This document shows, piece by piece, positions 6,415-23,358 of a stretch of DNA of 64,000 nucleotides; within the stretch, counting starts at the first letter, position 1; each line of letters begins with the position of its first letter. Position numbers and translations under genes: made by a program. The DNA lies in contig NZ_AP024109.1 in the NCBI RefSeq assembly GCF_016591715.1, positions 5,518,001 through 5,582,000 of the forward strand. Direction: 5' to 3'. Below the pieces are notes generated by a model that made no database searches, had not been told where the DNA came from, and saw only the letters and a list, made by a program, of their open reading frames with translations. This stretch comes from Mesorhizobium sp. J8 (GTDB lineage Bacteria; Pseudomonadota; Alphaproteobacteria; Rhizobiales; Rhizobiaceae).

Positions 6415-7083
6415 TCACCTGGCGGCAGGCGGTTTCCAGGTCGTGTATTGATCGAGCTCGGCGCGCGCCGAGGTCGGCGGCGCGATGATCCACATCACTT
6501 CGGCCCGGCCGCTGCCGATGTTCTCCGTGCGATGCGGGGTGGACGTCGTGTATTCGACGCTGTCGCCCTCTTCGAGCACATGGCGCGCCTCGCCTAGGAA
6601 GACCTCGACGACGCCGCGCAGCACGATCAGCATCTCATGCGCGTCGCCATGCGTGTATTGGTCGGGGCCGGTCGAGCCGCCGATCTCGAACTCGCCGACA
6701 TAGACCTCCATGTCGCTCAGCGGCGGCCGCGAAAGCAGCATCTTGCGGCAGCCGTCGCTGGGCGGCAGGCTTGGGCGTTCGCTGCGCCTGAGCACGCCGT
6801 GGTGATCTTGAGCCGTGCTCTCCGCGAAGAGCAGCGCGACGCTGACGCCGAGCGCCGAAGCCATCTGGTTGAGCGACGCCGTGCTGGCGCCAGTCAGACC
6901 GCGTTCGAGCTGGCTGATGAAGCTGGCACTGGTGCCGGTCGCCTCGGCGAGGTCGCGCAAGGAAAGCCGGCGGGCAAGGCGAAGGTTCTTGAGACGCATG
7001 CCCAGCACTTCTTGGGCGGCTGTCGCGACCAAACCGTTCTTGTTCCCGTTTGAAGCCTGGCTCTTATGGGAAGCCTTGGGCAT
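6415..7083 (-). CDS. XRE-cupin transcriptional regulator (PuuR-like)
   Basis: A 222-residue regulator. A helix-turn-helix of the Cro/CI type spans about residues 28-85 (LRDLAEATGTSASFISQLERG), and a C-terminal cupin sensor domain spans about 125-215 (YTHGDAHEMLIVLRGVVEV). PuuR and related amine-catabolism repressors share this layout. ATG 7081-7083 is preceded by GGAGAAC at 7 bases; an in-frame ATG at 7146 would place the palindrome at 7107-7129 inside the gene. It is first in the operon with the transporter and FAD oxidase, so autoregulation and control of those genes is the simplest reading. Confidence 0.85.
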   Translation of the reverse strand: MPKASHKSQASNGNKNGLVATAAQEVLGMRLKNLRLARRLSLRDLAEATGTSASFISQLERGLTGASTASLNQMASALGVSVALLFAESTAQDHHGVLRRSERPSLPPSDGCRKMLLSRPPLSDMEVYVGEFEIGGSTGPDQYTHGDAHEMLIVLRGVVEVFLGEARHVLEEGDSVEYTTSTPHRTENIGSGRAEVMWIIAPPTSARAELDQYTTWKPPAAR

Positions 7084-7106
7084 CTCATTTGTTCTCCACT
7101 GCACAG

Positions 7107-7129
7107 TTTGTACAGTGACACTGTACAAA
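7107..7129. promoter_or_regulatory. Perfect 11+1+11 palindrome, probable operator of the XRE-cupin regulator
   Basis: TTTGTACAGTG (7107-7117) and CACTGTACAAA (7119-7129) are exact reverse complements around a single A. The site ends 24 bp upstream of the regulator ATG, where a promoter would be expected; on the minus strand a weak -35-like TTGCTA and -10-like TACAAA flank or overlap it with a 17-base spacing. Position and perfect symmetry suit a dimeric Cro/CI-type regulator, so autoregulation of the operon is inferred. Confidence 0.7.
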
Positions 7130-7221
7130 TAGCAAGCAGCGAGCATCCGGCCAAAACCGGCCCTCAGCTGGGCCAGTCGACCGAACGATCGATGAGCAGT
7201 TCTTCGTGCAGCGGTAGCGGG

Positions 7222-9078
7222 TCAGCCTTCGCCCGACAGGTCGCGGCGCGCCTTGTCGAGTTCTTCGGCATATCGGCGCATCAGATGGCTTTCGGTGAGC
7301 AGGCCGAGAACGATGCGCTCGTCGAAATCTTCGACCACCGCCAACTCTTCCGCTCCGGTGCGCTGGAAGGTCTCGGCCGCGGTCTGGACGTTCATCGATG
7401 GCACCAGCACCGCATCCTTGAATTGGGCCAGCGCGCTCACCGGCGTATCGTCGTCGGAGCGATCGCTGTGCAGTTCGGGCACCAGCAGCATGCCGACATA
7501 TTGGTCGGCCTGCTCGACGGCGATGACGCGCTGTCCGGAGCCGAGCGGGACCTCCTTGCGGAATTCGGCAAGCGTGGTCGAGGCGGGGATGGTGCGGACA
7601 TCCTTGCGCATCATCGTGCCGACGGTGAGGCTGCGCATCCAGCCGACGTCGTGCGCGCTGCGGATCGTCTCGCCGCGCAGATGGAAGCGCCAGGTCGAGA
7701 AGGAGTAGCCGAAGGTTTCACGCACCAGGATCGCCGACATGATCGAGGCCGCCAGCACCACGCCGGTGAGCGTCAGGTCGCGGGTCGATTCCAGCGCCAG
7801 GAACGTCATGGTCAGCGGACCGCCGACGACGCCGACCGCAAGCGAGGTCATGCCGACGACGGCGGCGACCGCCGGATCGATGCCGGCCGACGGCGCGGTC
7901 ATTGCCATGACACCGGCGAAGACCTTGCCGAGCAGAGCTCCCAGGAACAGCGAGGCGAAGAACAGGCCGCCGCGGAAGCCGGAGCCGAGCGAGATGGCCG
8001 AGGCGGCCAGCTTCAGCACGAAGACGCTCGCCACCACCGGCAGCGCGTAGTTCATGGCGAATTCGCGATGCAACGCGCCATGCCCGCTGGAGAGCACTTG
8101 CGGCGTGACCAACCCGAGCAGGCCGACGAAAATGCCGCCGATGAAGGGCCTGATCGAAGCGTCGATCGACAACCGCACGAAGAGGCGCTCGACGATGCTC
8201 ACCAGATGCATGATGGCGATCGAGGCCGCTCCGCCGAGTAGCCCCAGAAGCAGGAACGGCACATATTCGCTGGGGGTCAAATTCGGCAAACCCGACAATT
8301 CCAGCGGGAACGGCACGCCCCCGAACATTTCCGCCGTCAGCGAAGCGCAGATCGCCGCCGTCATCACCGGCGCCACATTGGCGACGGAGTAGATGCCGAT
8401 GACCAGCTCGAAACCGTAGAAGGCGCCGGTCAGCGGAGCGTCGAAGGCGGCGGCGATCGCGCCGCCCGCGCCGCAGCCGACCAGGATGCGGATGTCGTTG
8501 CGGCGCAGGTGGAACGCCCGCGCCAGCCTGGAAGCGATGCCGGAGCCGATCTGCGTGTAGCCGGCTTCCAAGCCGACCGAGGCGCCGAAGCCGCTGGAGA
8601 TCATCGTCTGCGCCACGATGATAAACGTGTCGGTGAGCGACATGCGCCCGCCATAGAGCGCGTTCGCCTCGATCGGGTCGACCGGGGTGCGGAACTTGCG
8701 CTTTCTGAGCCAGACCACCGAAAGGCCGAGCAATAGGCCGCCGATCGCCGGATACATCGCCTGCGTCGGATCGGCGAGCGAGAACATCGCCGAAAGCCGG
8801 CCGCCCGGCTGCACGTCGAACAGCAGCCAGTGCATGCCTTGCACCAGCGCGCTCATGCCGGTGACCAGCGCGCCCGCGATCATGCCGATCACGCCGGCCA
8901 TCACCACGATCACGATGCCGCGCGCCTCGAGCACGGGGATCGAGCTGATCAGCACCGCGCGAAGCCGGCGGGCGTAGACTTGTGGGTCGTTTCTGGCAGG
9001 CAACGGAACGGCTCGCCGGTATGCGGAGGAAAAGCTGCCGTGGGTGATACGCGCGGCGGCTATGCGTGGCAACCGCAA
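7222..9078 (-). CDS. CLC-family chloride channel/antiporter with C-terminal CBS pair
   Basis: Up to 618 residues. The N-terminal two thirds is a CLC membrane domain with many hydrophobic segments; the last 130 or so residues form a CBS-domain pair (RTIPASTTLAEFRKEV, later VQTAAETFQRTGAEELAVVED). The filter motifs are divergent: the usual GREGP reads GLEAG with the gating Glu kept, the usual GSGIP reads TPVDP, and GGxFxP reads GGLFFAS. The frame opens with TTG at 9078; other TTG and GTG codons follow before the first helix (about residue 45), so the start is uncertain. It moves anions across the inner membrane; the ion is uncertain given the filter. Confidence 0.82.
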   Translation of the reverse strand: MRLPRIAAARITHGSFSSAYRRAVPLPARNDPQVYARRLRAVLISSIPVLEARGIVIVVMAGVIGMIAGALVTGMSALVQGMHWLLFDVQPGGRLSAMFSLADPTQAMYPAIGGLLLGLSVVWLRKRKFRTPVDPIEANALYGGRMSLTDTFIIVAQTMISSGFGASVGLEAGYTQIGSGIASRLARAFHLRRNDIRILVGCGAGGAIAAAFDAPLTGAFYGFELVIGIYSVANVAPVMTAAICASLTAEMFGGVPFPLELSGLPNLTPSEYVPFLLLGLLGGAASIAIMHLVSIVERLFVRLSIDASIRPFIGGIFVGLLGLVTPQVLSSGHGALHREFAMNYALPVVASVFVLKLAASAISLGSGFRGGLFFASLFLGALLGKVFAGVMAMTAPSAGIDPAVAAVVGMTSLAVGVVGGPLTMTFLALESTRDLTLTGVVLAASIMSAILVRETFGYSFSTWRFHLRGETIRSAHDVGWMRSLTVGTMMRKDVRTIPASTTLAEFRKEVPLGSGQRVIAVEQADQYVGMLLVPELHSDRSDDDTPVSALAQFKDAVLVPSMNVQTAAETFQRTGAEELAVVEDFDERIVLGLLTESHLMRRYAEELDKARRDLSGEG

Positions 9079-9158
9079 TGCCGACCGCTTGTGGCGCCAT
9101 TTTGGCGTTGCGCGAATTAGCCTTAAACAAGACTTTTCGTGCGACCAAGTTGATAAAC

Positions 9159-9668
9159 TTAGTCAGGTACGGGGATGGTGAGAGGGCCGCAATCGTCTTC
9201 CGCGACGAAGATCGCCAGCAGCTCGGCCGGCTCGGTGGCGCTGGCATTCTCGGCGAAGGTGTGGATCGCGCCCGGCGCTTCGAACCAGGTCTGGCCCTGA
9301 GTGTAGGTGACCGCCGGACTGCCTTCCATCTGCGAGCGCAGCGCTCCCTTGATGACGAAGGCCGTGACGGAGCCGGGGTGACGATGCCGCGGCGTGTAGG
9401 CATTGGGCGGGAATTCGACCAGCGCCGTGGTGATCGAATGCCCCGGAACATTCGGCAGCTTTTCGCAGGAAAGCGGCTTCACCGTGGTGGTCGGACGCGC
9501 CGTCGCCCCTTCTCCGGCATCGGCCCCCATCATGTGGATATGCGCGTCCATCCCGCCAGTGATGGCGGCTGCCCTGTTGCCCCGGACCATGGCCATGCCA
9601 AGCAGCCCCATGACGATAGCGACGACGCCGAGCAGCGCCAGCCTTCGCGAAGAGACGTCTTCGATCAT
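9159..9668 (-). CDS. Membrane-anchored cupin-domain protein
   Basis: A 169-residue protein with an N-terminal membrane segment at residues 9-27 (LALLGVVAIVMGLLGMAMV) and a cupin barrel in the C-terminal 110 residues (PRHRHPGSVTAFVIKGALRS, then GQTWFEAPGAIHTF). The paired His of motif 1 (HRHP) and the later His (AIHTF) suggest a metal-binding cupin facing the periplasm. The start ATG 9666-9668 has GAGGGAG about 8 bases upstream. It is encoded 18 bp after the epimerase gene on the same strand and is probably co-transcribed with it. No specific reaction can be assigned. Confidence 0.75.
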   Translation of the reverse strand: MIEDVSSRRLALLGVVAIVMGLLGMAMVRGNRAAAITGGMDAHIHMMGADAGEGATARPTTTVKPLSCEKLPNVPGHSITTALVEFPPNAYTPRHRHPGSVTAFVIKGALRSQMEGSPAVTYTQGQTWFEAPGAIHTFAENASATEPAELLAIFVAEDDCGPLTIPVPD

Positions 9669-9686
9669 GACGGTCGACTCCCTCGT

Positions 9687-10415
9687 TTACTGGGCCAGGC
9701 GAAAGCCGGCGTGCCAGCCGAGTTCGGTGACGGCCTTGTCGATCGTGATTTGGCCATTCGGCTCCGCCACATTGAAGGCGCCCTGCGCGCCCCGCTCGAC
9801 GGCAAGCAGCGCCGCATAGGCGGCGGCATCTGTATGCACGGCCGGCCCCGCAGCGCTTTCGGCGCCGGTGCCCGGTCCGTAGAGATGGCCGTAGCGGAGC
9901 ACGATGCCGGTGATCGGCGCGGCGTTGAGCACATGCGCCTCCAGCGCAATGACGCCGCCGACGCTGACGGCGCGGCCACCCTCGGCGCCGCTGTCCAGCG
10001 GGTCCGTCTCTGCATGCGGCTCTGCGCCCGGCGCATAGACCCAGGCGATGCTCTGCGCGATCAGCCGCTTGGCGCCGGCAGCCTTGGCCGCCGCGACGAG
10101 GTTACGCGTTCCCTCGTCGCGGATGCGGGCATTGCGTGTGGCTGCTTCAGCCATCTTCGATGGCTCGAGCCCGGCCGGCAGGTCTGTGAGCTGATGGATG
10201 ACGACCTCCGGCTTCGCTGCCACGACCGCAGTGCGCAGCGCGTTGGCGTCGAACACATCGACCACCACCGGATCGGCGCCGAGCCCGCGCAGGTCTTCCG
10301 TTTTTGCCGCCTGGCGTGTCGTGGCCGTCACCTGATGACCGGCCGCCACCAATTGCGGCACCAACCGGCGGCCGATCGCGCCCGAGGCGCCGGCAAGAAA
10401 AACACGATAGCCCAT
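9687..10415 (-). CDS. NAD(P)-dependent epimerase/dehydratase-family (extended SDR) protein
   Basis: A 242-residue Rossmann protein opening MGYRVFLAGASGAIGRRLVPQ, the GxxGxxG nucleotide-binding motif of extended or atypical SDRs. An active-site Tyr is not in a clear YxxxK context (SIAWVYAPG is the nearest), so it may be an atypical NAD(P)-binding member rather than a classical epimerase. It is divergent from the MarR gene 59 bp away and shares the palindromic control region, so regulation by that MarR protein is likely. A cupin gene follows. Confidence 0.75.
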   Translation of the reverse strand: MGYRVFLAGASGAIGRRLVPQLVAAGHQVTATTRQAAKTEDLRGLGADPVVVDVFDANALRTAVVAAKPEVVIHQLTDLPAGLEPSKMAEAATRNARIRDEGTRNLVAAAKAAGAKRLIAQSIAWVYAPGAEPHAETDPLDSGAEGGRAVSVGGVIALEAHVLNAAPITGIVLRYGHLYGPGTGAESAAGPAVHTDAAAYAALLAVERGAQGAFNVAEPNGQITIDKAVTELGWHAGFRLAQ

Positions 10416-11385: not shown

Positions 11386-13473
11386 ATGGCGATCAGCGAA
11401 ACACTACCGTCCGGCCTGGTGGCGAAGAACGGCCGCGACGTCTTCTTCGCGCTCGGCATCGTCGTCATCCTGGCGGTGCTGTTCCTGCCGATCCCCGCCT
11501 TCCTCATCGACATCGGCCTGGCCTTCTCGATCGCGCTTTCGGTGCTGATCCTGATGGTGGCGCTGTGGATCCAGCGGCCGCTCGACTTCTCGTCCTTCCC
11601 GACCGTGCTGCTGATCGCCACCATGCTGCGCCTGTCGCTCAACATCGCCACCACGCGCATGATCCTGTCGCACGGCAATGAGGGTACGCATGCCGCCGGC
11701 TATGTCATCTCCGGCTTCTCCAAGCTGGTGATGTCGAGCGACTTCGTCATCGGCCTCATCGTCTTCATGATCCTGATCGTGGTGAACTTCATCGTCATCA
11801 CCAAGGGCGCCACCCGTATCGCCGAAGTCGGCGCGCGCTTCACCCTCGACGCCATCCCCGGCAAGCAGATGTCGATCGACGCCGATCTCTCCGCCGGCAT
11901 GATCGACGAAAAGACGGCGCAGTTGCGGCGCCGCGAACTGGAGGAAGAATCCTCCTTCTTCGGTTCGATGGACGGTGCGTCCAAATTCGTGCGCGGCGAC
12001 GCCATCGCCGGCCTGATCATCACCGCCATCAACATCGTCGGCGGCATCGCCATTGGCTATCTGCGCCACGGCATGGGCCTCGGCCAGGCGGCCGACGTCT
12101 TCATCAAGCTGTCGGTCGGCGACGGTCTCGTCACCCAGATCCCGGCCCTCATCGTTTCGCTCGCCGCCGGCATGCTGGTCTCCAAGGGCGGCACGCGCGG
12201 CTCGGCCAACCAGGCGGTGTTCGGCCAACTCGGCGCGCATCCGCGCGCGCTCTACGTCGCGGCCTCGCTGCTGGTCATCCTTGGCCTGATGCCCGGCCTG
12301 CCGCTGTTCCCCTTCTTCGCGCTCGCCGGCGGCATGGCCGGCCTGGGCTACATCATCCCGCTGCGCCAAAGCCGCGAACGTGCTGCCGCCGAGGCCCTGA
12401 AGACGCAGGAGAAGGCCAACAAGGTCGAGGAGGAGAAGAACTCGGTTAAGGCCTCGCTGGTCACCGCCGAGATCGAGCTGCTGATCGGCAAGCAGCTTTC
12501 GACCAGGCTGATGGTGGCGCATCAGGAGCTGGTGTTCCGTATGTCGAAGATGCGCAAGAAATTCGCCCAGCAATACGGCTTCGTGGTGCCGGAGGTGCGC
12601 GTCGCCGACGACTTCGCCATTCCGCCGAAGAGCTATCAAATCAAGGTGCACGGCACGGTGGTCGCCGAATACCAGATGCGCGTCGGCGAGATCATGGTGC
12701 TGCTCGGCACGCGCGGCGTGCCGGAAATCCCCGGCGAGGAGATCCGCGAGCCGGCCTTCGGCATGCGCGCCTATTCGGTGCTCGAAACCTTCGCCGAGGA
12801 CCTGAAGCGCGAGAACTTCACCTTCGCCGACAACATGTCGGTCCTGCTCACCCATCTTTCGGAAGTCATCCGCAACAACCTGCCGCAGCTTCTCTCCTAC
12901 AAGGACATGAAGGCGCTCTTGGAACGGCTCGACCCCGAATACCGCAAGCTCGCCGACGAGATCTGCACCTCGCACATCTCCTATCCAGGCCTGCAGGCCG
13001 TGCTGAAGCTGCTGCTTGCCGAGCGCGTCTCGATCCGCAATTTGCATCTGATCATCGAGGCGATCGCCGAGATCGCGCCGCATGTGCGCCGCACCGAGCA
13101 GATCGTCGAGCATGTGCGCATCCGCATGGCGCAGCAGATCTGCGGCGACCTCTCGGAAGGCGGCATGCTCAAGGTTCTGCGCCTCGGCAACCGCTGGGAC
13201 CTCGCCTTCCACCAGAGCCTCAAGCGCGACGCCAAGGGCGAGGTGCGCGAGTTCGACATCGATCCGCGCCAGCTCGAGGAGTTCGGCCAGGACGCCACCA
13301 AGGCGATCCGCAAGCATCTCGAGGCCGGCGAGCGCTTCGTGCTGGTCACCGCGCCGGACGCCCGCCCCTATGTGCGCATGATCATCGAGCGGCTGTTCAC
13401 GACGCTTCCGGTTCTCAGCCATGTCGAGATCGCCAAGGGCGTCGAGATCAAGGTGCTCGGAACGATCTCGTGA
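11386..13473 (+). CDS. flhA: Flagellar export apparatus protein FlhA
   Basis: A 695-residue protein of normal FlhA length. The N-terminal half has eight membrane segments, with the FHIPEP-like signature in the segment [15 protein letters not shown] and the long cytoplasmic loop ([22 protein letters not shown]). The C-terminal half is the cytoplasmic substrate-docking domain. FlhA is the major gate component of the flagellar type III export apparatus. The start ATG at 11386 gives the usual N-terminus. Its stop overlaps the fliR start (GTGA), so the two are coupled. The nearby gene on the left is the opposite-strand ABM pseudogene. Confidence 0.96.
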
Positions 13474-14222
13474 ACGCGCTCTCGCAAGGCATCGTCATCG
13501 CCGCCTTCCTCGCCTTCTGCCGCATCGGCGCCTGCTTCATGCTGATGCCTGGCCTGTCGAGCGCCCGCGTGCCGATCCAGATCCGGCTCTTCGTGTCGGT
13601 GGCCGCGACCGGCGGCCTGCTCGCTTTCCTGTGGGACCGCATCTACCCCTTCGTCGATCCGCGCCCGCAGGTGCTCGCACCGATGATCGTTTCCGAGTTG
13701 CTGGTCGGCGGACTGATCGGCGCCATGACCAGGCTCTACATGGAAGCGTTGCGCTTCATGGGCTCGGCCATCGCCATGCTGATCGGCTATGGCGGCTCGG
13801 GCGGGCCGGCGATCGAGGAGCCTGAGCCGCAGGCCGCGCTTGCCGCCATCATCTCGTTCTCGGCGCTGCTTCTACTCTTCGTCTTCGATTTCGACCACGA
13901 GATCGTCAAGGCGCTCGTCGCCTCCTACCAGGTCGCCCCGGTCAACGCGTTCTTCAACCCGCAGGCGGCCCTCGTCGACGTCACCGACACGGTGTCGGAC
14001 GCGTTCTTCCTGGTCGTCCGCCTCGGCAGCCCGTTCGTCGCCTACGCCATCCTGGTCAATCTGACGATCGGCTTCGTCAACAAGCTGACGCCGCAGATCC
14101 CGGTCTATTTCATCTCGCTGCCCTTCGTCATCGCCGGCGGCATGATCATCTTCTATTTTGCCGTCGGCACCTTGCTATCGCTCTTCGTCGACGGCTTCGT
14201 CGACCTCACGCTGGCGCGGTAG
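13470..14222 (+). CDS. fliR: Flagellar export apparatus protein FliR
   Basis: A 250-residue membrane protein with the FliR/SctT layout: N-terminal helix ([22 protein letters not shown]), several central helices, and a C-terminal segment [20 protein letters not shown]. FliR is part of the FliPQR export gate. The start is GTG 13470-13472, overlapping the flhA TGA by 4 bases; no ATG is near, and this start gives the expected length. Confidence 0.93.
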
Positions 14223-14738: not shown

Positions 14739-15650
14739 CTATTGTTCGAAAGGCTCTCCGAGCGATGCCACGCCGTTGAGCTTTAGCAGACGCCGGTTCG
14801 AAGAAATGATGCCCAGCACGACGATTGTCACGATATAGGGCAGGCTCGAGAGAAGTTGCGAAGAAACGTCCAGTCCGGTCGCCTGCGCCGCCAGGCTTGC
14901 CAAGGAGACGGCGCCGAAGAGGCAGGCGCCGAGAAAGATACGGCTGGTGAGCCAGGTGCCGAAGACGACGAGCGCGATCGCGATCCAGCCGCGCCCGGCA
15001 ATCATGCCATCGGCCCACAGCGGCGTGTAGACCACGGCCGCGTAGGCGCCGGCGAAGCCAGCCAATACGCCGCCGAAGGCGACAGCGGCGAAGCGCACCG
15101 CGATCACAGGATAGCCGAGCGCATGGGCCGCCTTGGGATTCTCGCCGACGGCGCGAACGACAAGGCCGGTCTTGGTATAGGCGAATATTGCCCAGATGGC
15201 GACGGTCGCCGCCAGCGAGAGCCACACGACGACGTCCTGGGCGAACAGGCCGCCGATGACCGGGATATCTGAAAGCCAGGGCAACGAAAGCTTCGGAAGG
15301 CCTTTGACCGTGAGGCTCTCATAGGTCTTGCCGAACAGTGCCGATAGGCCCTGGCCAAGTATGCCTATGGCCAGCCCCACCGCGACCTGGTTCGCGCGGA
15401 ACCCCAGCGCGATGACGGCAAAGACAAGGGAAAGAGCCGCGCTGGCGAGGCCTGCGGCGAGGAAACCCAGAAGGTGGCCGCCGCCGCGATAGACGATGAT
15501 GAAGGCGATGATCGCCCCCAAGGCCATCAGTCCCTCCACGCCGAGATTGAGGACGCCGGCCCGCTCGGCCACCATCTCGCCAAGCGCCGCCAAAAGGAAC
15601 GGCGTGGCCGCCGCCAGCATTCCGGCGACGATGAACTCGAGGGCATTCAT
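14739..15650 (-). CDS. ABC transporter permease, BMP/nucleoside type (second permease)
   Basis: A 303-residue permease of the BPD_transp_2 family, as in NupQ/YufQ. The start MNALEFIVAGMLAAATPFLL at ATG 15648-15650 overlaps the stop of the upstream permease by 4 bases. The family segment AERAGVLNLGVEGLMALGA is at about residues 28-46. With the other permease, ATPase and BMP-type binding protein it forms a complete importer for nucleosides or purine-like compounds. It is the last gene of the 23358-14739 block; the fliJ-like gene ends 130 bp to the left on the opposite strand. Confidence 0.88.
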   Translation of the reverse strand: MNALEFIVAGMLAAATPFLLAALGEMVAERAGVLNLGVEGLMALGAIIAFIIVYRGGGHLLGFLAAGLASAALSLVFAVIALGFRANQVAVGLAIGILGQGLSALFGKTYESLTVKGLPKLSLPWLSDIPVIGGLFAQDVVVWLSLAATVAIWAIFAYTKTGLVVRAVGENPKAAHALGYPVIAVRFAAVAFGGVLAGFAGAYAAVVYTPLWADGMIAGRGWIAIALVVFGTWLTSRIFLGACLFGAVSLASLAAQATGLDVSSQLLSSLPYIVTIVVLGIISSNRRLLKLNGVASLGEPFEQ

Positions 15651-16747
15651 GGAGCGCTTTCCTGGGCGGCATGGCGCCATTCGAGCCGGTAGCGGACGAA
15701 GGCGATGGCGACGAGATAGGCGAGCAACAGGCTGCCCTGGAAGACCCGGACCGCGGCGACCGGCAGATTTGCCGACACCATGGCGTTGTCGCCGCCGATA
15801 TAGAGGGCCGCCATGAGCAGCGCGGAAAAAATGATGCCTATCGGATGAAGTCCACCGAGATAAGCGACGATGATGGCCGCATAGCCGTAGCCGGTCGAGA
15901 TGGAGCGCTGCAACTGGCCGAGCGGCCCGGCCACCTCGGCCGCCCCGGCGAGGCCGGCCGCGAAGCCGCCGATGAGGAAGGAAATCCAGATTGCGCGGCC
16001 TTCATTGAAGCCGGCGTATGCGGCCGCGCGCGGCGCCAGGCCGCCGACCTGCAGCTTGTAGCCCGCGAAACTCCTCTGCATGAACAGCCAGGCCGCGAGC
16101 GACAGCGCGCAGGCGATAAGCAGCGAGACGTTGACGCGGGTGCCGGGGATCAGGATCGGCACCATCGCGTCGTACTGGAACATGACCGACTGCGGGAAGT
16201 TGAAGCCGGCGGGGTCCTTCCAGGGCCCGAGAAGCAGGTAGTTGAGCAGTTGCGCGGCAACGAGTGCCAGCATCAGCGATACGAGAATCTCGTTCGCGTT
16301 GAGCCGCACGCGCCAGAACGCCGTGAGCGAAGCCCAAAGCGCGCCGCCCAGCGCGCCGAGGACGAGCATGGAGGGCCAAATCCACTGCCCCGTCGCCTGC
16401 GGGAGCCAGATGGGAATGGCCGACGCGAAGATTGCGCCGAGGATGAATTGGCCCTCAGCGCCGATGTTGAAAACCTTGGCGCGAAAGCCGATCGCAAGCC
16501 CCTGTGCGATGAGCAGCAGCGGCCCCATCTTCAGCAGGACTTCCGAGAACGAAGCCCAGGATAGGAAAGGTTCGAGCAACATCGCGTGGAAAACGGCTAC
16601 CGGATCTCGACCCATCAGAAGGTAGAGCCCGAGATTGAGCAGTGTCGCAAGGCCCAGCGCCACGGGCGGGGCGAGCAGCTTGACTGCAAGCGAGGCATGT
16701 TCGCGGCGAACCAGAACGGGAAGGAACCGCAGGGGCAGAGCGCTCAT
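15647..16747 (-). CDS. ABC transporter permease, BMP/nucleoside type (first permease)
   Basis: A 366-residue permease of the same family as NupP/YufP. A membrane segment at about residues 25-48 (LLAPPVALGLATLLNLGLYL) is followed by the conserved FRAKVFNIGAEGQFILGAI segment, which is the family hallmark, and a later LGGLHPIGIIFSALLMAALYIGG. The start ATG 16745-16747 overlaps the ATPase stop by 4 bases. It forms a heterodimeric channel with the next gene product. Confidence 0.88.
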   Translation of the reverse strand: MSALPLRFLPVLVRREHASLAVKLLAPPVALGLATLLNLGLYLLMGRDPVAVFHAMLLEPFLSWASFSEVLLKMGPLLLIAQGLAIGFRAKVFNIGAEGQFILGAIFASAIPIWLPQATGQWIWPSMLVLGALGGALWASLTAFWRVRLNANEILVSLMLALVAAQLLNYLLLGPWKDPAGFNFPQSVMFQYDAMVPILIPGTRVNVSLLIACALSLAAWLFMQRSFAGYKLQVGGLAPRAAAYAGFNEGRAIWISFLIGGFAAGLAGAAEVAGPLGQLQRSISTGYGYAAIIVAYLGGLHPIGIIFSALLMAALYIGGDNAMVSANLPVAAVRVFQGSLLLAYLVAIAFVRYRLEWRHAAQESAP

Positions 16748-18267
16748 GCGGGGACCTTTTCGGCGGTCGTATGCGCACCGATCATATAACGGCCGATCTC
16801 CTCGGGTCTGGTGTCGCTTGTCACCAGCGGCGGACTGAGCCGGCCCTGATGGATCACCTGGATGGAATCGCAGAGCTCGAACAGTTCCTCCAGTTCCTCC
16901 GAGATGACGAGAATGGCCATGCCTTCGTTGCGCAGGGCGACGAGGCGCCGGCGGATGGCGGCCGCGGCGCCTATGTCCACGCCCCAGGTGGGCTGCGCCA
17001 CGAACAGCAGCTTCGGTGATAGCATGATCTCGCGGCCGACGATGAACTTTTGCAGATTGCCGCCCGAAAGCGCCCCAGCCTCCGTTTCCGAGCCCGGCGT
17101 GCGTACGTCATACTGCCGGATGCACTCTTCGGTGAAAGCTTTCGCCCGGGGCGTGTCGACCAGCCCGCGTTTCAGGAGGCCGGAGGGATGGGCGGTCAGA
17201 AGGCTGTTGAGGACGAGCGACATTTCCGGCACCGCGCCGCGGCCCAGCCGTTCCTCGGGCACGAAGGCGAAACCCAGCCGGCGGCGGGCGGCCGCATCGA
17301 GCACGCCGACGTCCTTGCCCATCATGAAGATACGCTCGGACTTTTCCCGCGGCAGCACTGTCTCGCCCGAGATCAGCGTTGCGAGTTCGCTCTGGCCGTT
17401 GCCCGATATGCCGGCGATACCGAGGATCTCGCCTGCCCGGACCGTCAGGCTGATGTCGGAAAGCGTCACGGCGAAGGGATCGTCGGGCCGATGGTCGAGG
17501 CCGACGATTTCAAGGCGCTTCTCTCCGCCGGAATGGGCAACCGCCGGCATGGGCTGCGGCATGTCGCGGCCGATCATCATGCGGGCGAGGTCGTGCGCGT
17601 CGTGGTCGCGCGGATCCACGTGGCCGGTGATGCGCCCGCCGCGAAGGATGGTTGCACGGTCGCAGACCGCGCGAATCTCCTCCAGCTTGTGCGAGATGAA
17701 CAGGATAGAGACGCCGCCGTCGCGCAACCGCCGCAACGTCTCGAACAGCTTGTCTACGGATTGCGGCGGCAGGACGGAAGTCGGTTCGTCAAGGATCAGG
17801 AGCTCCGGTCGGGTCATCAGGCAGCGGATGATTTCCACCCGCTGCCGCTCACCGACCGAAAGCGAATGCACGTGGGCGAGCGGATCGACCTCCAGGCCGA
17901 AGTCACGGCCGAGCTTGCGGATACCTTGAGCAAGATCCGATTTGACCCCTGGCACGACCAGCCGGATGTTCTCGACGACCGTGAGCGTCTCGAACAAGGA
18001 GAAATGCTGGAAGACCATGCCGATCCCCTGGCGCCTCGCATCCGCCGGGGACGCGAGGGCCAGGGTTTCTCCTTTCCAGGTCGCCGATCCCGCGTCGGGC
18101 TGCTCGACGCCGTAGATCAGCTTCATCAGCGTCGACTTGCCCGCCCCGTTCTCTCCCAGGATCGCATGGATCGAGCGCGGAGCCACGTCCAGATCGATGT
18201 CTCGATTGGCATGGATCTGGCCGTAGCTCTTGGAGATGCCGCGCAGCGACAGAAGCGGGGCGGTCAT
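16744..18267 (-). CDS. ABC transporter ATPase with two ATPase domains, BMP/nucleoside type
   Basis: A 507-residue tandem ATPase. The first domain has Walker A GENGAGKST (about residues 38-46), LSVGERQRVEI and LLILDEP; the second has a degenerate Walker A (GISGNGQSE) and LSGGNLQKFIVGRE, with the Walker B Asp-Glu replaced (LLFVAQPTWGVD). This asymmetric pair is normal for the RbsA/NupO class, where the second site is weak. Transport class: nucleosides, purines or simple sugars; the binding protein type favours the first two. Confidence 0.9.
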   Translation of the reverse strand: MTAPLLSLRGISKSYGQIHANRDIDLDVAPRSIHAILGENGAGKSTLMKLIYGVEQPDAGSATWKGETLALASPADARRQGIGMVFQHFSLFETLTVVENIRLVVPGVKSDLAQGIRKLGRDFGLEVDPLAHVHSLSVGERQRVEIIRCLMTRPELLILDEPTSVLPPQSVDKLFETLRRLRDGGVSILFISHKLEEIRAVCDRATILRGGRITGHVDPRDHDAHDLARMMIGRDMPQPMPAVAHSGGEKRLEIVGLDHRPDDPFAVTLSDISLTVRAGEILGIAGISGNGQSELATLISGETVLPREKSERIFMMGKDVGVLDAAARRRLGFAFVPEERLGRGAVPEMSLVLNSLLTAHPSGLLKRGLVDTPRAKAFTEECIRQYDVRTPGSETEAGALSGGNLQKFIVGREIMLSPKLLFVAQPTWGVDIGAAAAIRRRLVALRNEGMAILVISEELEELFELCDSIQVIHQGRLSPPLVTSDTRPEEIGRYMIGAHTTAEKVPA

Positions 18268-18269
18268 GA

Positions 18270-19367
18270 TTACTTGGGCAGCGGCGTGGTGACACCCTTG
18301 ACGTGCCAGTCCATGGCGACGATCTCGGCCTGGGTCATCGTCTTGCCGGCGGGGACGCCCTCGCTGCCATCAGCCTTGGCGATCGGACCGGTAAAGGGCG
18401 AGAAGCTGCCCCCGGCGATCTTGGCTTCAACCTCCTTGATCTTGGCCATCATGTCGGCCGGGATGCCCGGGTTCCAGTCAACGACCTCGACAACCTTGTC
18501 GCCGACGCCCAGGAAAGCGTTGGCGCCCTTGAAGGTGCCGGCGAGGTGGGCGTCGACCGATGCTTTGAAGAAGGGCGACCAGTCGGTCGCCACGCAGCCG
18601 AGATAGGTCTTGGGCGCGTACTTCTTCATCGACGAGTTGAGGTTGAAGGCGGGGATGCCGGCCTCCTCACAGGCCGAGACGACGGACGGCGTATCCTGCG
18701 CGTTGGAGAAGATCACGTCGCATTTCTGCGCCAGCAGCGCCTTGGCGGCTTCCTGCTCCTTGGCCGGGTCGAACCAGGAATTGACCCATACGACCGAAAC
18801 CTCGACATCGGGCTTCACCGCCTGCGCTCCTAAGGTGAAGGCGTTGATGGAGGTGATCAACTCAGGGATGGCGAAGGCTGACACGGAGCCGAGCTTGCCG
18901 GTCTTCGAAAGCGCGGCTGCGGCCATGCCCATCAGATAGGTGCCCTGCGAATATTGGGCCGCGAAGGGCGAGAAGTTCGGCGCCACCTGGAAACCGGAAG
19001 CATGCAGCACGGTGACGTCGGGATTGCGCCGTGCGACCTGCAGGGCGCCATTTTGGTATCCGAAGGAGCCGGCAATGAGGAACTTGTTTCCGTCGGCGAC
19101 GGCCTTGTTCATGATGCGATCGGCGTCGGGTCCCTCCTGTATGTTCTCGATGATAGTGACCTTCACCTTGTCGCCATAGGCTGCCTTCACCGGCCCGAGC
19201 CCGTCGGCGAGCGCGCGGCCCCAGCCGACATCGCCGACCGGCGACGGGACCACCAGCGCGATGCCTAGCGGCTCGTCGGCGGCAAGCGCTCGGCTGCCCA
19301 CCGCGGCAACGAGGCCGGAAGCCGCGGCGCCCTTCATCAATGTTCTGCGGGTAAGATTTATCAGCAT
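18270..19367 (-). CDS. BMP-family ABC transporter binding protein
   Basis: A 365-residue secreted binding protein of the BMP (Med/PnrA-like) family, known to bind nucleosides, purines and relatives. The N-terminus has a twin-arginine-like signal (LTRRTLMKGAAASG, cleavage near residue 30 after ALA). The mature start (LGIALVVPSPVGDVGW) and FGYQNGALQVARRNPDVTVLHASG are family segments. It is the first transporter gene, 30 bp after the amidohydrolase, so the imported compound is probably the substrate of the enzymes encoded upstream. Confidence 0.88.
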   Translation of the reverse strand: MLINLTRRTLMKGAAASGLVAAVGSRALAADEPLGIALVVPSPVGDVGWGRALADGLGPVKAAYGDKVKVTIIENIQEGPDADRIMNKAVADGNKFLIAGSFGYQNGALQVARRNPDVTVLHASGFQVAPNFSPFAAQYSQGTYLMGMAAAALSKTGKLGSVSAFAIPELITSINAFTLGAQAVKPDVEVSVVWVNSWFDPAKEQEAAKALLAQKCDVIFSNAQDTPSVVSACEEAGIPAFNLNSSMKKYAPKTYLGCVATDWSPFFKASVDAHLAGTFKGANAFLGVGDKVVEVVDWNPGIPADMMAKIKEVEAKIAGGSFSPFTGPIAKADGSEGVPAGKTMTQAEIVAMDWHVKGVTTPLPK

Positions 19368-19397: not shown

Positions 19398-20777
19398 CTA
19401 GAATTGCACGGTCGCGAGCGCCGCCTCGGCTTGCGCGAACAACCTGGCCTCGTCGAGCCCCGGGAATTCTCCCTTGGCCCAAACGACCCGGCCGTTGATC
19501 ATGGTCATGTCGGTCGGCGCGCCGATTCCAACCTTGGCCAGCAGGCTCAGCGGATCGTGCCGCGTGCCGACATAGTCCATGCGCCGGGTGTCGATGGCGA
19601 AGAGATCGGCGGCCATGCCAGGCGCCAGCCTGCCGATGTCGCCGCGCCCGAGCAGCGCCGCGCCCCCCGTCGTCGCATAGCCGAGAAAATCAGCCGGCGG
19701 CGGCACCGGATGACCGCGCGTCGATGCCGCGAGGCATTGCAGCATGTAGGCGGAATGGATGCAGTGCATCAGGTTGGAATTGTCGTTCGAGGCGGCGCCG
19801 TCGCAGCCCAGTCCGACACTGAGCCCGAGGGCCGACATCGCCGGTATGTCAGTGATCTCGGCGCCGACGAGGTAGACCGGCTCAGGGCAATGCGAGACGC
19901 CGGTGCCGCTCGCCGCCATCTTGCGCAGCTCGTCGTGGGTCAGCTCCCAGCAATGGGCATAGAAGGCATCCGGCCCGCAGAAGCCGATCTCGGTGCAATA
20001 GTCGACGGTTCGCAGGCCGTGACGGGCCTGCATGACCGGGCTTTCGCCCTCGCCGACATGGGTGTGCATGCGCACCTTGCGGTCGCGCGCCAACGCCACC
20101 GATTCCAAGAACGTGTCGCGATAGCAGTTGACCGGCTGGCAAGGCGCGACGATGACCTGGCGCATGCCGAAGCGACCGGCATCATGGTAGGCGTCGATCA
20201 GCCGGGCGCAGTCGGCGATGAACTCGTCCGTCGTTTCCAGCATGGCGTCGGGGATGGTCGAGCCTTCCGATTTCGGCAGCGTGTTGCCGCCCCGTCCGGC
20301 ATGGAAGCGCATGCCGAGCAGTTCGGCCGCTTCGAATTGCCGGTCGATCAGCCGTTTGCCGGCGTGCCGCGGAAAACAGTATTGATGGTCGAAAGCCGTC
20401 GTGCAGCCGTGCTTTATCAACTCCGCCATAGCCGTGACCGACGCGTGGTAGAAACATTCCTCGGTGAGCCGCGAGAAAATGGGGTAGATGCGGTCGAGCC
20501 ATTCGATGACCGACAGCTTCGTCCAGTCCAAGTCGGCGCGGTTGCGCACGAAGCATTGAAAGAAGTGATGATGGGTGTTGACGAGGCCCGGATAGACGAA
20601 CCAGCCGGCGGCGTCCTGCGCGACGGTGCCGCCAGACAGTCCCCCCTTGTCGAGGTCTTCGCCGATGGCCCGTATCGCCGGGCCGTCGGTCAAGACATCG
20701 ACATTGCGGCGGACGCGCGGACCATCGCCATCGTCGACGATGACCGCAGCGCAGTTCTTCAACAGATAACCCGTCAT
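19398..20777 (-). CDS. Amidohydrolase, 8-oxoguanine deaminase / hydroxydechloroatrazine hydrolase type
   Basis: A 459-residue amidohydrolase of subtype III. Metal ligands are visible as NTHHH (His69 and His71), a later MHTHVGE, and the catalytic Asp in GLGCDGAASND. These match the family that includes the 8-oxoguanine deaminase PA0142 and atrazine-related hydrolases, which act on purine or triazine amino groups. The substrate loop (CHCPEPVYLVGAEITD) differs from the usual CHCPSSNMRL, so the substrate may differ. The start ATG 20775-20777 is one base after the GST stop; a longer frame into the GST gene is rejected. It is expected in the cytoplasm and releases ammonia. Confidence 0.82.
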   Translation of the reverse strand: MTGYLLKNCAAVIVDDGDGPRVRRNVDVLTDGPAIRAIGEDLDKGGLSGGTVAQDAAGWFVYPGLVNTHHHFFQCFVRNRADLDWTKLSVIEWLDRIYPIFSRLTEECFYHASVTAMAELIKHGCTTAFDHQYCFPRHAGKRLIDRQFEAAELLGMRFHAGRGGNTLPKSEGSTIPDAMLETTDEFIADCARLIDAYHDAGRFGMRQVIVAPCQPVNCYRDTFLESVALARDRKVRMHTHVGEGESPVMQARHGLRTVDYCTEIGFCGPDAFYAHCWELTHDELRKMAASGTGVSHCPEPVYLVGAEITDIPAMSALGLSVGLGCDGAASNDNSNLMHCIHSAYMLQCLAASTRGHPVPPPADFLGYATTGGAALLGRGDIGRLAPGMAADLFAIDTRRMDYVGTRHDPLSLLAKVGIGAPTDMTMINGRVVWAKGEFPGLDEARLFAQAEAALATVQF

Positions 20778-20778
20778 G

Positions 20779-21438
20779 TCAGGCTTCGCCGCCTTCGAGG
20801 ACGGGCTCAGGCTTGAGCTCGTGCAGCCGATGGATGCCGGGCATCTCGATGAAGCCGTCGATGCCGCGGATCGCCCGCGACCATAGCCGGATCGCGGGAT
20901 AGGGATCGAGCCAAACGCCGCCGTCCGGCGCGAGCGCGACATAGGGAAAGCAGGCGATATCGGCGATCGTCGGCCGGTCCGACGCAAGGAAGCGCTGGCC
21001 GCGGATGCGCTGTTCGACGAGGCCGGCTTCCAGTTCCCGAAGGGCCGCCGTGCCTTGCCCGCGAAGCGCATCGATATCGCCCGGACGCAGCAGCATCTCG
21101 TGCAGGCGCGCCGCTCCCAGGCTAGCGGTCAGCCGGTGCGAGAAGGACAGCCATTGCTGGACGCGTGCTCCCTGCTCGGCCGCATCGTTACCCAGCCATT
21201 GCGGCGCCCCCTTGGCGGCGAGGTAGACCAGCATAGCCGAGGATTCGGTCAGGACGAGGTCGCCATCCTCCAGGATCGGGATCGAGCCCGCCGGATTGAG
21301 CGCCAGGAGTTCGGGGCCGCGATGCTCGGCGCCGGGATGGAAGTCGACCGGGCGGATGTCGAGCGCCACACCTGTCAGCGCCGCCATCAGGCGCACTTTG
21401 TAGCAGCTCGGTGACAGCACATAGTCGTAGAGCTTCAT
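20779..21438 (-). CDS. Glutathione S-transferase-like protein
   Basis: A 219-residue GST-fold protein. The N-terminal thioredoxin-like domain has SPSCYKVRLMAAL at the active-site position and the cis-Pro/ESSA glutathione motif GSIPILEDGDLVLTESSAML (about residues 51-70). The C-terminal helical domain follows. It overlaps the oxygenase gene by 4 bases (ATGA), implying co-translation. In the caffeine pathway of Pseudomonas putida, NdmE is a GST-like protein required by the NdmC/NdmD oxygenase, and a similar structural role is suggested here. Alternatively it is an ordinary GST acting on a pathway product. Confidence 0.82.
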   Translation of the reverse strand: MKLYDYVLSPSCYKVRLMAALTGVALDIRPVDFHPGAEHRGPELLALNPAGSIPILEDGDLVLTESSAMLVYLAAKGAPQWLGNDAAEQGARVQQWLSFSHRLTASLGAARLHEMLLRPGDIDALRGQGTAALRELEAGLVEQRIRGQRFLASDRPTIADIACFPYVALAPDGGVWLDPYPAIRLWSRAIRGIDGFIEMPGIHRLHELKPEPVLEGGEA

Positions 21439-22280
21439 TGCGCCACCAGTTGCGCGCCGTAGGTGTAGCCATGGCGTTTCAGCCAGCGCCGGTAGGCAAC
21501 CGAGGTCAGGTCGGCCCGTGTGGGAATCTCCATGCCGGGATCGAGCGGCAGCAGCTCCGGGATCTGGTTTTCAAGGATCGACCGGTCCTGGACGAAGATC
21601 GTCTGCTGGAAATGAATCAGGTCCGTCAGCGGCGTTTCGTCGTCGAACAGTGCCATCCATGGCCAGACGTCGCACAGGTCTTCGGCAAGCGGCTGCACGA
21701 AAAGGGTGATGACGTCCCATTCACCTGGGCGAGGCGGACAGGTCTTGTAGAGGATCGAGCAGGTCGGCGCGGGCACGCGATACATGTATTGCGTGTTGAT
21801 GCCGCCTGCCGCCGATTTGGCGGCCTGCGGCTGGTAGAACTGCACCTGGGTTGCCCACACCTCGTCTTCGTCCTCGCGGATCTCGACCTTGTAGTTCTGC
21901 ACCTCCGTATGCGGCTCTGCTCCCAATATGTCGGTATGGACGAACGGGAAATGCGCGATGTCCAGGAAGTTCTCCACCGCGCGCAGCGGCGAGCAGCGCA
22001 CGCGCACCACCCCGACATCGACGAGCCGGCGGCCGGGCTGATCGGCCTCGGGGATCGCAAACAGCGGCTTTTGCGGATCGCCGAGCGACGCCCAGACATG
22101 GCCATAGCGGACTAAGGCCGGCAGAACACGTCCGTTGCCGCCGGCGACCTTGGCGGTCCCGTCGTCGCCGAGCCTCACCTCGATCGGCTCGCCCATGAGG
22201 GCGGTTTTGCGTCCATGCGCATCGAGCTGGCTGACAAGGCAGACCGGATACCATTCGTCGATCATCGCGTTGCGGGTCAT
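21435..22280 (-). CDS. Rieske-less ring-hydroxylating-type oxygenase catalytic subunit (NdmC-like)
   Basis: A 281-residue protein. The start looks like a Rieske oxygenase (EWYPVCLVSQL, LMGEPIEVRLGDDG), but the two Cys-His cluster motifs are absent. The sequence passes directly to LVRYGHVWASLGDP, which in normal oxygenases follows the cluster domain. The catalytic iron site is intact: NFLDIAHFPFVH gives His110 and His115, with Asp107 in the electron-transfer position. It must get electrons from another Rieske protein; the gene just upstream encodes one. 4-base overlaps on both sides indicate coupled expression. Expected reaction: N-demethylation or hydroxylation of the imported compound. Confidence 0.8.
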   Translation of the reverse strand: MTRNAMIDEWYPVCLVSQLDAHGRKTALMGEPIEVRLGDDGTAKVAGGNGRVLPALVRYGHVWASLGDPQKPLFAIPEADQPGRRLVDVGVVRVRCSPLRAVENFLDIAHFPFVHTDILGAEPHTEVQNYKVEIREDEDEVWATQVQFYQPQAAKSAAGGINTQYMYRVPAPTCSILYKTCPPRPGEWDVITLFVQPLAEDLCDVWPWMALFDDETPLTDLIHFQQTIFVQDRSILENQIPELLPLDPGMEIPTRADLTSVAYRRWLKRHGYTYGAQLVAQ

Positions 22281-22927
22281 CGGGCGGTCCCGCTGGCCGC
22301 AACATACTCGGCCGCCCGCCGCAGCGCTTCGGCGGCCCTCGACGCGGCGATACGTTCGCTCGGATTGCTGTCCTCGTCGACCAGTACATGCATCAGCGTC
22401 CGCGCTTTCCCTTCGGGAGCAAGCAGCAGCCGCACGGTCCGGCCATCATGCGTATAGTCTAGCAGGCCTTCAGCGGCCTTCGTTCCGGCGGCCTCCTCCA
22501 GCGCGGCGATGTCGGCCTCCACCACCATTGAGCGCAGGGGGGTAACTCCGTCGAACCGTGGCGGCTCGGCGGCGGGTTCGCCGACCGGAATCCAGATGAT
22601 GCCGCCGCCATCCTCGACAGGCTGTGTCGCGACACGAATCGTGTCCGGCGGCGTCAGTGCCGGATGGGCCGGAATACGCAGGCAGTTTCCCGCCTGGGCG
22701 TAGCTCCAGCCGTGATAGATGCAGGACAGGGTCTCACCGCGCACGAAGCCGTGGGAGAGGCGCATGCCGCGATGAGGGCATCTGTCGGCAAAGGCCGCCA
22801 TACGGCCGGAGCGGCTTCTCCAAAGGGCAATCGGCCCGGCTGGGGATTGCGCTGGCATCACGGTTCCCGCCGGCAAATCCGCGGAGAGGGCAACAGGCAT
22901 CCAAGAGCCGGTCGAGTAGGGAGGCAT
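22277..22927 (-). CDS. Stand-alone Rieske [2Fe-2S] protein, partner of the Rieske-less oxygenase
   Basis: A 216-residue protein. The N-terminal domain carries both halves of a Rieske site: CPHRG (Cys50, His52) and CIYHGW (Cys69, His72), separated by 16 residues as in oxygenase Rieske domains. The C-terminal 110 residues have no iron-site pattern and I do not recognise them. It probably passes electrons to the oxygenase encoded by the overlapping next gene. No flavin/NADH reductase domain is present here or elsewhere in the window, so the reductase must be encoded elsewhere. The ATG at 22927 has no clear Shine-Dalgarno. Confidence 0.82.
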   Translation of the reverse strand: MPPYSTGSWMPVALSADLPAGTVMPAQSPAGPIALWRSRSGRMAAFADRCPHRGMRLSHGFVRGETLSCIYHGWSYAQAGNCLRIPAHPALTPPDTIRVATQPVEDGGGIIWIPVGEPAAEPPRFDGVTPLRSMVVEADIAALEEAAGTKAAEGLLDYTHDGRTVRLLLAPEGKARTLMHVLVDEDSNPSERIAASRAAEALRRAAEYVAASGTAR

Positions 22928-23088: not shown

Positions 23089-23358
23089 CTAGCCCGATTC
23101 GCCCTCTATCGGCACCCGGCGGATGGCCTCGACCCAGACATCGATTGGTCCAAGAGAGCATCCCATCTCCATCATGTCGACGAGCTCGGCTGGACCGGCG
23201 ATGTCGAGTTCGATGCAGTCGGGACCGGCAAAGCATATTGCCTGCGCGAGCCCGAGCTTGGCGGCATGACGCTCGATCCAAGGAAGGAAGGAGGCTGCCT
23301 CGACATCGCCGAGGATCGTCATGCGCTCCCGCCAGAAACGGTGATTTTGCTCGCTCAT
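23089..23358 (-). CDS. Acylphosphatase-like protein lacking catalytic residues
   Basis: An 89-residue protein from ATG 23356-23358 (GAGG about 6 bases upstream; an earlier ATG at 23406 adds a short hydrophobic leader of doubtful value). The pattern follows acylphosphatase: GDVEAASFLPWIERHAAKLGL aligns with the G-x-V-x-G-x-x-F-R...A..LGL core, and CSLGPIDVWVEAIRR matches the conserved C-terminal strand. The catalytic Arg of the GVGFR motif reads Leu, and the catalytic Asn after LGL is not evident. I infer an inactive, ligand-binding or structural relative. It is the first gene of the catabolic block. Confidence 0.55.
   Translation of the reverse strand: MSEQNHRFWRERMTILGDVEAASFLPWIERHAAKLGLAQAICFAGPDCIELDIAGPAELVDMMEMGCSLGPIDVWVEAIRRVPIEGESG

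Follow-up and report, generated by a model that had tools for sequence, protein, structure and literature searches.

A putative two-chain Rieske oxygenase related to NdmCDE in a conserved nine-gene cassette of Mesorhizobium sp. J8

The closest described relative of the genes reported here is the NdmCDE demethylase. According to the accessible text of PMC4408171, NdmC lacks a Rieske cluster and has N7-demethylase activity, NdmD supplies the cluster, and NdmE, which resembles glutathione S-transferases (GSTs), is also needed. The same text cites Summers et al. 2013 for ndmCDE homologues that occur mostly in Sinorhizobium and Mesorhizobium and whose function is unknown, and the accessible part of PMC13237722 describes the NdmCDE structure as still unsolved in 2026. 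The present locus lies in a stretch of 64,000 nucleotides (the window) from Mesorhizobium sp. J8, contig NZ_AP024109.1, positions 5,518,001 to 5,582,000; the analysed genome comprises 6.7 Mb in one contig. It encodes an oxygenase without a Rieske centre, a free Rieske protein and a GST-like protein, within a cassette of nine genes. Loci of relatives are designated by L numbers.

Complementary subunits in a conserved cassette

Three adjacent genes form the core of the locus:

22277..22927, minus strand, free Rieske [2Fe-2S] subunit (216 amino acids; Pfam Rieske, 9.3e-21)
21435..22280, minus strand, catalytic oxygenase subunit (281 amino acids; Pfam VanA_C, 8.5e-20)
20779..21438, minus strand, GST-like protein, the NdmE counterpart (219 amino acids; Pfam GST_N, 5.5e-15, and GST_C)

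The Rieske and oxygenase genes share positions 22277-22280, and the oxygenase and GST-like genes share 21435-21438 (4 bases each). The initial annotation had described these overlaps, a stand-alone Rieske protein carrying CPHRG and CIYHGW, an oxygenase that keeps the mononuclear iron motif NFLDIAHFPFVH and lacks the Rieske ligands, and a GST-like third protein. The coordinates and Pfam matches bear out this description, and the oxygenase has no Pfam Rieske match. Both the Rieske ligands (C-x-H / C-x2-H) and the iron motif of Rieske non-heme iron oxygenases are present, spread over two subunits.

This division was followed in a set of 80 closest loci, chosen as the top-ranked 80 among 523 relatives, which represent the window's own branch and not the whole family; several of their contigs stop inside the operon, and L112, which has broken frames, was kept. 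The Rieske motif is found in 80/80 Rieske proteins and in 0/80 oxygenases, and the iron motif N-x2-D-x2-H-x4-H in 80/80 oxygenases and in 0/80 Rieske proteins. The survey of gene adjacency that the initial annotation had suggested found the three genes in the same order and on one strand in all 80, with a 4-base overlap between the Rieske and oxygenase genes in 68 and between the oxygenase and GST-like genes in 69. Such an arrangement is far beyond chance. A protein search returned 2862 relatives of the oxygenase and 1309 of the Rieske protein, and most of the 120 matches listed for each have lengths near 281 and 216 residues, respectively; some listed Rieske proteins are shorter and are probably partial.

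The ratio of nonsynonymous to synonymous substitution rates (dN/dS), calculated against six Mesorhizobium loci, is well below 1 for every part: 0.10-0.15 both for the oxygenase and for residues 1-120 of the Rieske protein, 0.28-0.53 for residues 121-216 of the latter, 0.12-0.16 for the GST-like protein, and 0.20-0.32 for a small acylphosphatase-like protein encoded upstream. These data bear on the possibility that a single oxygenase gene broke recently and left the two halves behind, a refutation that the initial annotation had itself named. Single-chain relatives, of another family, do occur in a similar transporter context. However, a recent break can hardly account for motifs divided 80/80 against 0/80 in both directions, for stable lengths, or for the low dN/dS of the oxygenase. 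Moreover, each protein seems to retain traces of its missing half, and one cut through a gene cannot produce this. This explanation was rejected, as far as sequence can decide the matter.

Six further genes, additional to those in the initial annotation, extend the cassette upstream (the acylphosphatase-like gene) and downstream (deaminase and transporter genes):

23089..23358, minus strand, small acylphosphatase-like protein (89 amino acids from an ATG at 23358; start picked by homology)
19398..20777, minus strand, amidohydrolase of the purine deaminase type (459 amino acids from an ATG at 20777; searches were run with 19398-20774)
18270..19367, minus strand, AtzT-like periplasmic binding protein of the BMP family (Pfam Bmp, 3e-38)
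16744..18267, minus strand, ATP-binding protein of an ATP-binding cassette (ABC) transporter (Pfam ABC_tran, two stretches)
15647..16747, minus strand, ABC transporter permease 1 (Pfam BPD_transp_2, 2.6e-37)
14739..15680, minus strand, ABC transporter permease 2 (Pfam BPD_transp_2, 7.8e-31; start at 15680 or, by homology, at 15650)

A gap of 161 bases separates the end of the acylphosphatase-like gene from the Rieske gene downstream of it. Among the closest loci, an acylphosphatase-like gene lies upstream of the Rieske gene in 78/80; at L045 and L076, no such frame was seen in the 700 bases upstream. The amidohydrolase is present in 69/80 and is replaced by a guanine deaminase-like gene in three others, and transporter genes are found in 72-74 of 80, where the figure of 74 counts any ABC ATPase. 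Because every other neighbouring family (frames of at least 110 amino acids) is confined to at most 9 of these loci, the nine genes are taken as the unit. The cassette is widespread in Alphaproteobacteria, and an oxygenase of this kind, with fused and free types pooled, was found at E 1e-25 or better in 101/394 genomes drawn from the window's family. No relative was found in viral contigs searched with six peptide patterns. In the window, flagellar export genes (FHIPEP and Bac_export_1 families; 11386-14222) end about 500 bases past the last permease gene.

Kinship of the subunits and origin of the split

The oxygenase has a mononuclear iron site that we take to consist of N104, D107, H110, H115 and D232, and it seems to carry a stump of a Rieske domain near residues 4-46. 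Over residues 2-276 it is 45% identical to P0256, a Pseudomonas putida protein named methylxanthine N7-demethylase (UniRef M1EY73), in which the iron motif is present and the Rieske motif absent. A search with the Pseudomonas reference L015, which bears no ndm name, led to P0256, P0257 (N7-demethylase) and P0253 (putative NdmC).

Catalytic-domain trees were built from 80 rows and, after addition of the three named NdmC-type proteins, from 83; the rows were hand-chosen and near-copies dropped. All Rieske-less oxygenases fall on one side of a branch from the 15 single-chain rows, with support of 91/97 in the first tree and 94/97 in the second. P0256 groups with L015 and L200, which are of the fused type (100/99). 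In the first tree, the window's inner branch (25 rows, 100/99) contains only oxygenases paired with a free Rieske protein and lies within a free-Rieske branch of 42 rows (82/77). On addition of the named NdmC proteins, the free rows L202, L018_5002 and L132_5730 shifted to an unresolved fork that also holds the NdmC branch (86/83), so only the 25-row inner branch is firm. The nearest single-chain relatives in the set are L155-L161, of another family of the phylum (f208), with weak support (86/39).

The Rieske protein consists of a Rieske domain at residues ~6-118, followed by a region at ~120-216. Its predicted fold follows that of a full-length oxygenase and not merely that of a ferredoxin, and fold matches cover both subunits almost from end to end. 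In these models, residues ~120-216 look like the remnant of an oxygenase catalytic domain, and each subunit resembles a Rieske oxygenase without the other's centre, which fits a duplication followed by complementary loss. By profile, the same tail matches the linker of NdmD with a probability of 97%, and the long NdmD linker thus looks like the same hollowed-out remnant. In the C-terminal helix (residues 196-207), Ser196, Glu200, Arg203 and Glu207 are invariant or nearly so among 58 rows, and their spacing, suited to one helix face, makes this a possible binding surface.

A Rieske-domain tree of 69 rows and 113 columns, also hand-chosen with near-copies dropped, has many open forks. It joins the NdmD N-termini and the free Rieske proteins against the single-chain enzymes (100/95). 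With the oxygenase in the NdmC clade, the tree comparison called for in the initial annotation thus left its proposal standing. The window falls among 38 free-form rows that make up a branch of their own (97/93), distinct from the fused forms. Because free forms occur at several places, the tree leans toward a free Rieske protein that preceded the fused NdmD. Two labels qualify this tree: L201 was assigned to the fused type by hand (its fused frame has 418 amino acids or fewer), and L024 is counted as free, although it has the same Rieske domain as the fused L200 and its reading frames look broken. On L024, a Cupriavidus plasmid, NdmC-, NdmD- and GST-like frames lie in overlapping pieces at 6681-9995 and adjoin genes for a formaldehyde dehydrogenase and a nucleobase symporter.

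The GST-like protein conserves Cys12 (76/82 rows), Pro54 (81/82), Glu65 (69/82) and Ser66 (73/82). The last three, in the N-terminal domain, are presumably residues of the glutathione-site type. The record of a Pseudomonas fulva plasmid (L015) shows, at 16560-17300, a GST-like gene that follows the NdmD-like gene and looks frame-broken.

The family profile of the small upstream protein matches solved acylphosphatases (4.9e-6, 1v3z), and 19 of 21 family members match Pfam PF00708, the best at 6.4e-10; the window's own protein falls below the Pfam cut-off (14.6 versus 22.5 bits, E 0.04). The catalytic residues of acylphosphatases, which we take to be an Arg and an Asn in columns placed by alignment, are absent (0/80 for each). 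In the long stretches, of which the wider ones (L131-L140 and L193-L208) were hand-picked from search matches, matches above 40 bits were obtained at 12 of the 20 free-Rieske loci other than the window's and at none of the 11 fused loci. The 12 include four from the branch to which the window belongs (L136, L196-L198); at L208, the small gene is downstream. The protein therefore tends to accompany the free Rieske form, and our guess is that it serves as a structural subunit.

Proposed function and electron supply

There is slightly better than an even chance that the operon imports, deaminates and oxidatively dealkylates an N-alkylated guanine-type purine by means of a multi-subunit Rieske oxygenase with a borrowed reductase. 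The imported purine, most likely N-methylated, would be deaminated, and its alkyl group would then be stripped oxidatively. The oxygenase subunit would hold the mononuclear iron and the substrate, and the Rieske subunit the [2Fe-2S] cluster, from which electrons would cross the subunit interface. The pair would be held together by the GST-like protein, perhaps with help from the acylphosphatase-like one, and a reductase encoded elsewhere would feed the Rieske subunit. Electron transfer between neighbouring subunits is the usual route in Rieske oxygenases. Because the Rieske cluster of one subunit lies only about 12 A from the iron of the next (accessible text of PMC12445004), a two-chain split would be mechanically easy.

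We infer a purine substrate because the operon encodes a deaminase, in a slot that is filled by two types of enzyme, together with an AtzT-like binding protein. The nearest solved chains of the amidohydrolase are, tied, 3hpa (an unnamed amidohydrolase) and 7ww2 (8-oxoguanine deaminase); those of the binding protein are 6pi5 (AtzT) and 3s99. In the accessible text of PMC6834077, the binding values of AtzT are 110 nM for guanine, 2.5 uM for adenine and 2.2 uM for 2-hydroxyatrazine. By a hand count on an alignment, with residue numbers from that text, five of the seven guanine contacts of AtzT are identical in the window's protein (Ser97, Phe98, Glu165, Trp194 and Asn218).

The affinity of AtzT for 2-hydroxyatrazine, together with solved deaminase relatives named hydroxydechloroatrazine and triazine hydrolases, could also point to N-dealkylation of s-triazine-like or other foreign N-heterocycles. 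We consider this improbable, since AtzT binds guanine about 20 times more tightly (0.11 versus 2.2 uM), the cassette is so widely distributed in Alphaproteobacteria, and guanine deaminase- or xanthine dehydrogenase-like genes adjoin several wider relatives.

Within a purine pathway, N-demethylation of a methylated guanine or xanthine is favoured at about even chances, and the assignment of this reaction, with 7-methylguanine or 7-methylxanthine as substrate, is the least certain part of the proposal. The main rival is hydroxylation of the purine ring, for example at C8 of guanine, after which the deaminase would turn 8-oxoguanine into urate. Ring hydroxylation is known among Rieske oxygenases, the nearest named solved relative of the deaminase is an 8-oxoguanine deaminase, and the closest loci lack an adjoining formaldehyde dehydrogenase. 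Nevertheless, we regard this alternative as rather unlikely: the deaminase scores under the cut-off of the 8-oxoguanine deaminase family, and some wider relatives adjoin formaldehyde dehydrogenase and guanine deaminase-like genes. Also, the nearest relative with a named function is NdmC, an N7-demethylase by its activity in the accessible text of PMC4408171. A formaldehyde dehydrogenase at some wider loci fits demethylation.

Several results weigh against import and N-dealkylation of a purine by a split oxygenase. The amidohydrolase reaches 366 bits against the NCBIfam model for 8-oxoguanine deaminase (NF006055), below the cut-off of 532, and two of the seven AtzT contacts differ, with Tyr45 replaced by Trp and Asn220 aligned to Asp beside a gap. 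A formaldehyde dehydrogenase (>55% identity) adjoins 0/80 of the closest loci, the genome having two elsewhere, and only 6/36 wider loci, two of these being identical in sequence and one fragmented. No reductase linked to the operon is present in the window, so the electron route is a guess. The Rieske tail matches catalytic domains weakly by profile (33% probability with the oxygenase and <1% with single-chain enzymes), so its description as a remnant rests on the predicted fold and the NdmD linker match. Finally, the free-Rieske and NdmC oxygenase branches are parted by weakly supported forks that shift between trees.

No dedicated reductase is conserved across the 80 closest loci, where one VanB-type match lies nearby (L088); relatives with a VanB-type reductase nearby are L018, L088 and L208. 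The window's genome contains two VanB-type and four FNR-type matches, none of them tied to the operon. The longer VanB-type match lies in a cluster that we take, by eye, to encode a dimethylamine monooxygenase. One FNR-type match is the same gene as this longer VanB-type match, one lies behind a molybdoprotein-like frame, and another resembles, by eye, a general ferredoxin/flavodoxin reductase.

Because several relatives have at least two oxygenase genes near one Rieske or NdmD gene (L020, L021, L132, L139, L193, L194, L203 and L205), the data suggest that two or more catalytic subunits may share a single electron-delivering subunit. The same loci raise the idea that the Rieske protein carries electrons to other oxygenases in general, with the Rieske-less oxygenase drawing its own from a different source. 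That seems quite unlikely, as the Rieske protein's predicted fold is more than a ferredoxin's and a 4-base overlap joins its gene to the oxygenase gene in most of the closest loci.

In L193, L194 and L205, the two oxygenase genes, 14-16 kilobases from each other, bracket one Rieske gene, one GST-like gene and one acylphosphatase-like gene. All three loci also hold deaminase-like genes, and L193 and L205 a xanthine dehydrogenase-like gene. In L018 (3941-10492), a Komagataeibacter nataicola plasmid from a kombucha tea culture, two free-Rieske sets flank a VanB-type reductase gene and adjoin single-chain oxygenases that are of the NdmA/B kind by similarity. In L017 (19643-20834), from Qingshengfaniella alkalisoli, flavin reductase-family and allantoinase genes are close to the cassette.

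A more complete account can be offered, although as a whole it is doubtful. A whole oxygenase might have been duplicated and opposite halves hollowed out, with the GST-like protein and a catalytically dead acylphosphatase, a true subunit, holding the pair together. Soil Alphaproteobacteria would use the system to recover nitrogen from N7-methylguanine released in RNA and DNA turnover, through import, deamination to 7-methylxanthine and demethylation to xanthine. NdmD would then be such a Rieske subunit fused to a reductase.

Rieske oxygenases pass electrons between subunits, and a pair with a donor-only and an acceptor-only member would let the two centres be mixed, mutated and titrated separately in studies of electron transfer. 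The locus further suggests how the unusual NdmCDE complex may have arisen, and the long NdmD linker can be read as a catalytic domain that has been hollowed out. The frequency of such oxygenases in the window's family, given above for both types together, points to a common, uncharacterised purine pathway.

Comparison with known systems

The f208 single-chain oxygenases (L155-L161) carry both centres on one chain and adjoin BMP-type transporters. In the five stretches read, their loci contain no GST-like, acylphosphatase-like or VanB-type match above 40 bits, and weak guanine deaminase- or xanthine dehydrogenase-like matches (27-32% identity) are near in four. Single-chain oxygenases near the split type, at L155-L161 and L209-L213, adjoin BMP-type transporter genes. 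SxtT and GxtA, whose sequences and folds are the nearest solved ones to both subunits of the window, differ in being single-chain enzymes with both centres. The N1- and N3-demethylases NdmA and NdmB are likewise Rieske oxygenases that act on methylxanthines, but they match more weakly in sequence and have both centres on a single chain, and NdmA/B-like rows, labelled by similarity, fall outside the Rieske-less clade.

NdmCDE, the 7-methylxanthine N7-demethylase of Pseudomonas putida CBB5, shares with the window a Rieske-less oxygenase of the same clade and length, a Rieske domain of the same clade on a separate protein, and a GST-like partner. However, the Rieske domain of that system is at the N-terminus of the NdmD reductase, whereas the window's Rieske protein is free and is related to the N-terminal part of NdmD only. 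The window's operon also adds an acylphosphatase-like protein, a deaminase and a BMP-type ABC transporter. The initial annotation had proposed a resemblance to NdmC, NdmD and NdmE and a Rieske protein unfused to a reductase. The second point is correct, as the 216 residues include no reductase domains. Of the first, kinship stands for the oxygenase (45%, 94/97) and the Rieske protein (100/95), with a GST-like partner in 80/80 loci. Because the fused reductase is absent, the system is not a member of NdmCDE and is better described as a free-Rieske relative.

The ndmCDE homologues of Sinorhizobium and Mesorhizobium, already known in rhizobia from the accessible text of PMC4408171, come from the same group of genera and have an NdmC-like oxygenase. 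In the Rieske tree, the window's free branch (97/93) is apart from the fused forms. A literature search, outside which lay subscription papers (the 2013 NdmCDE paper included), found no publication on the free-Rieske operon among the papers listed. What the present analysis adds is the pair of predicted folds hollowed out in complementary ways, the partner that resembles acylphosphatases, the cassette with its inferred link to purines, and the interpretation of the NdmD linker.

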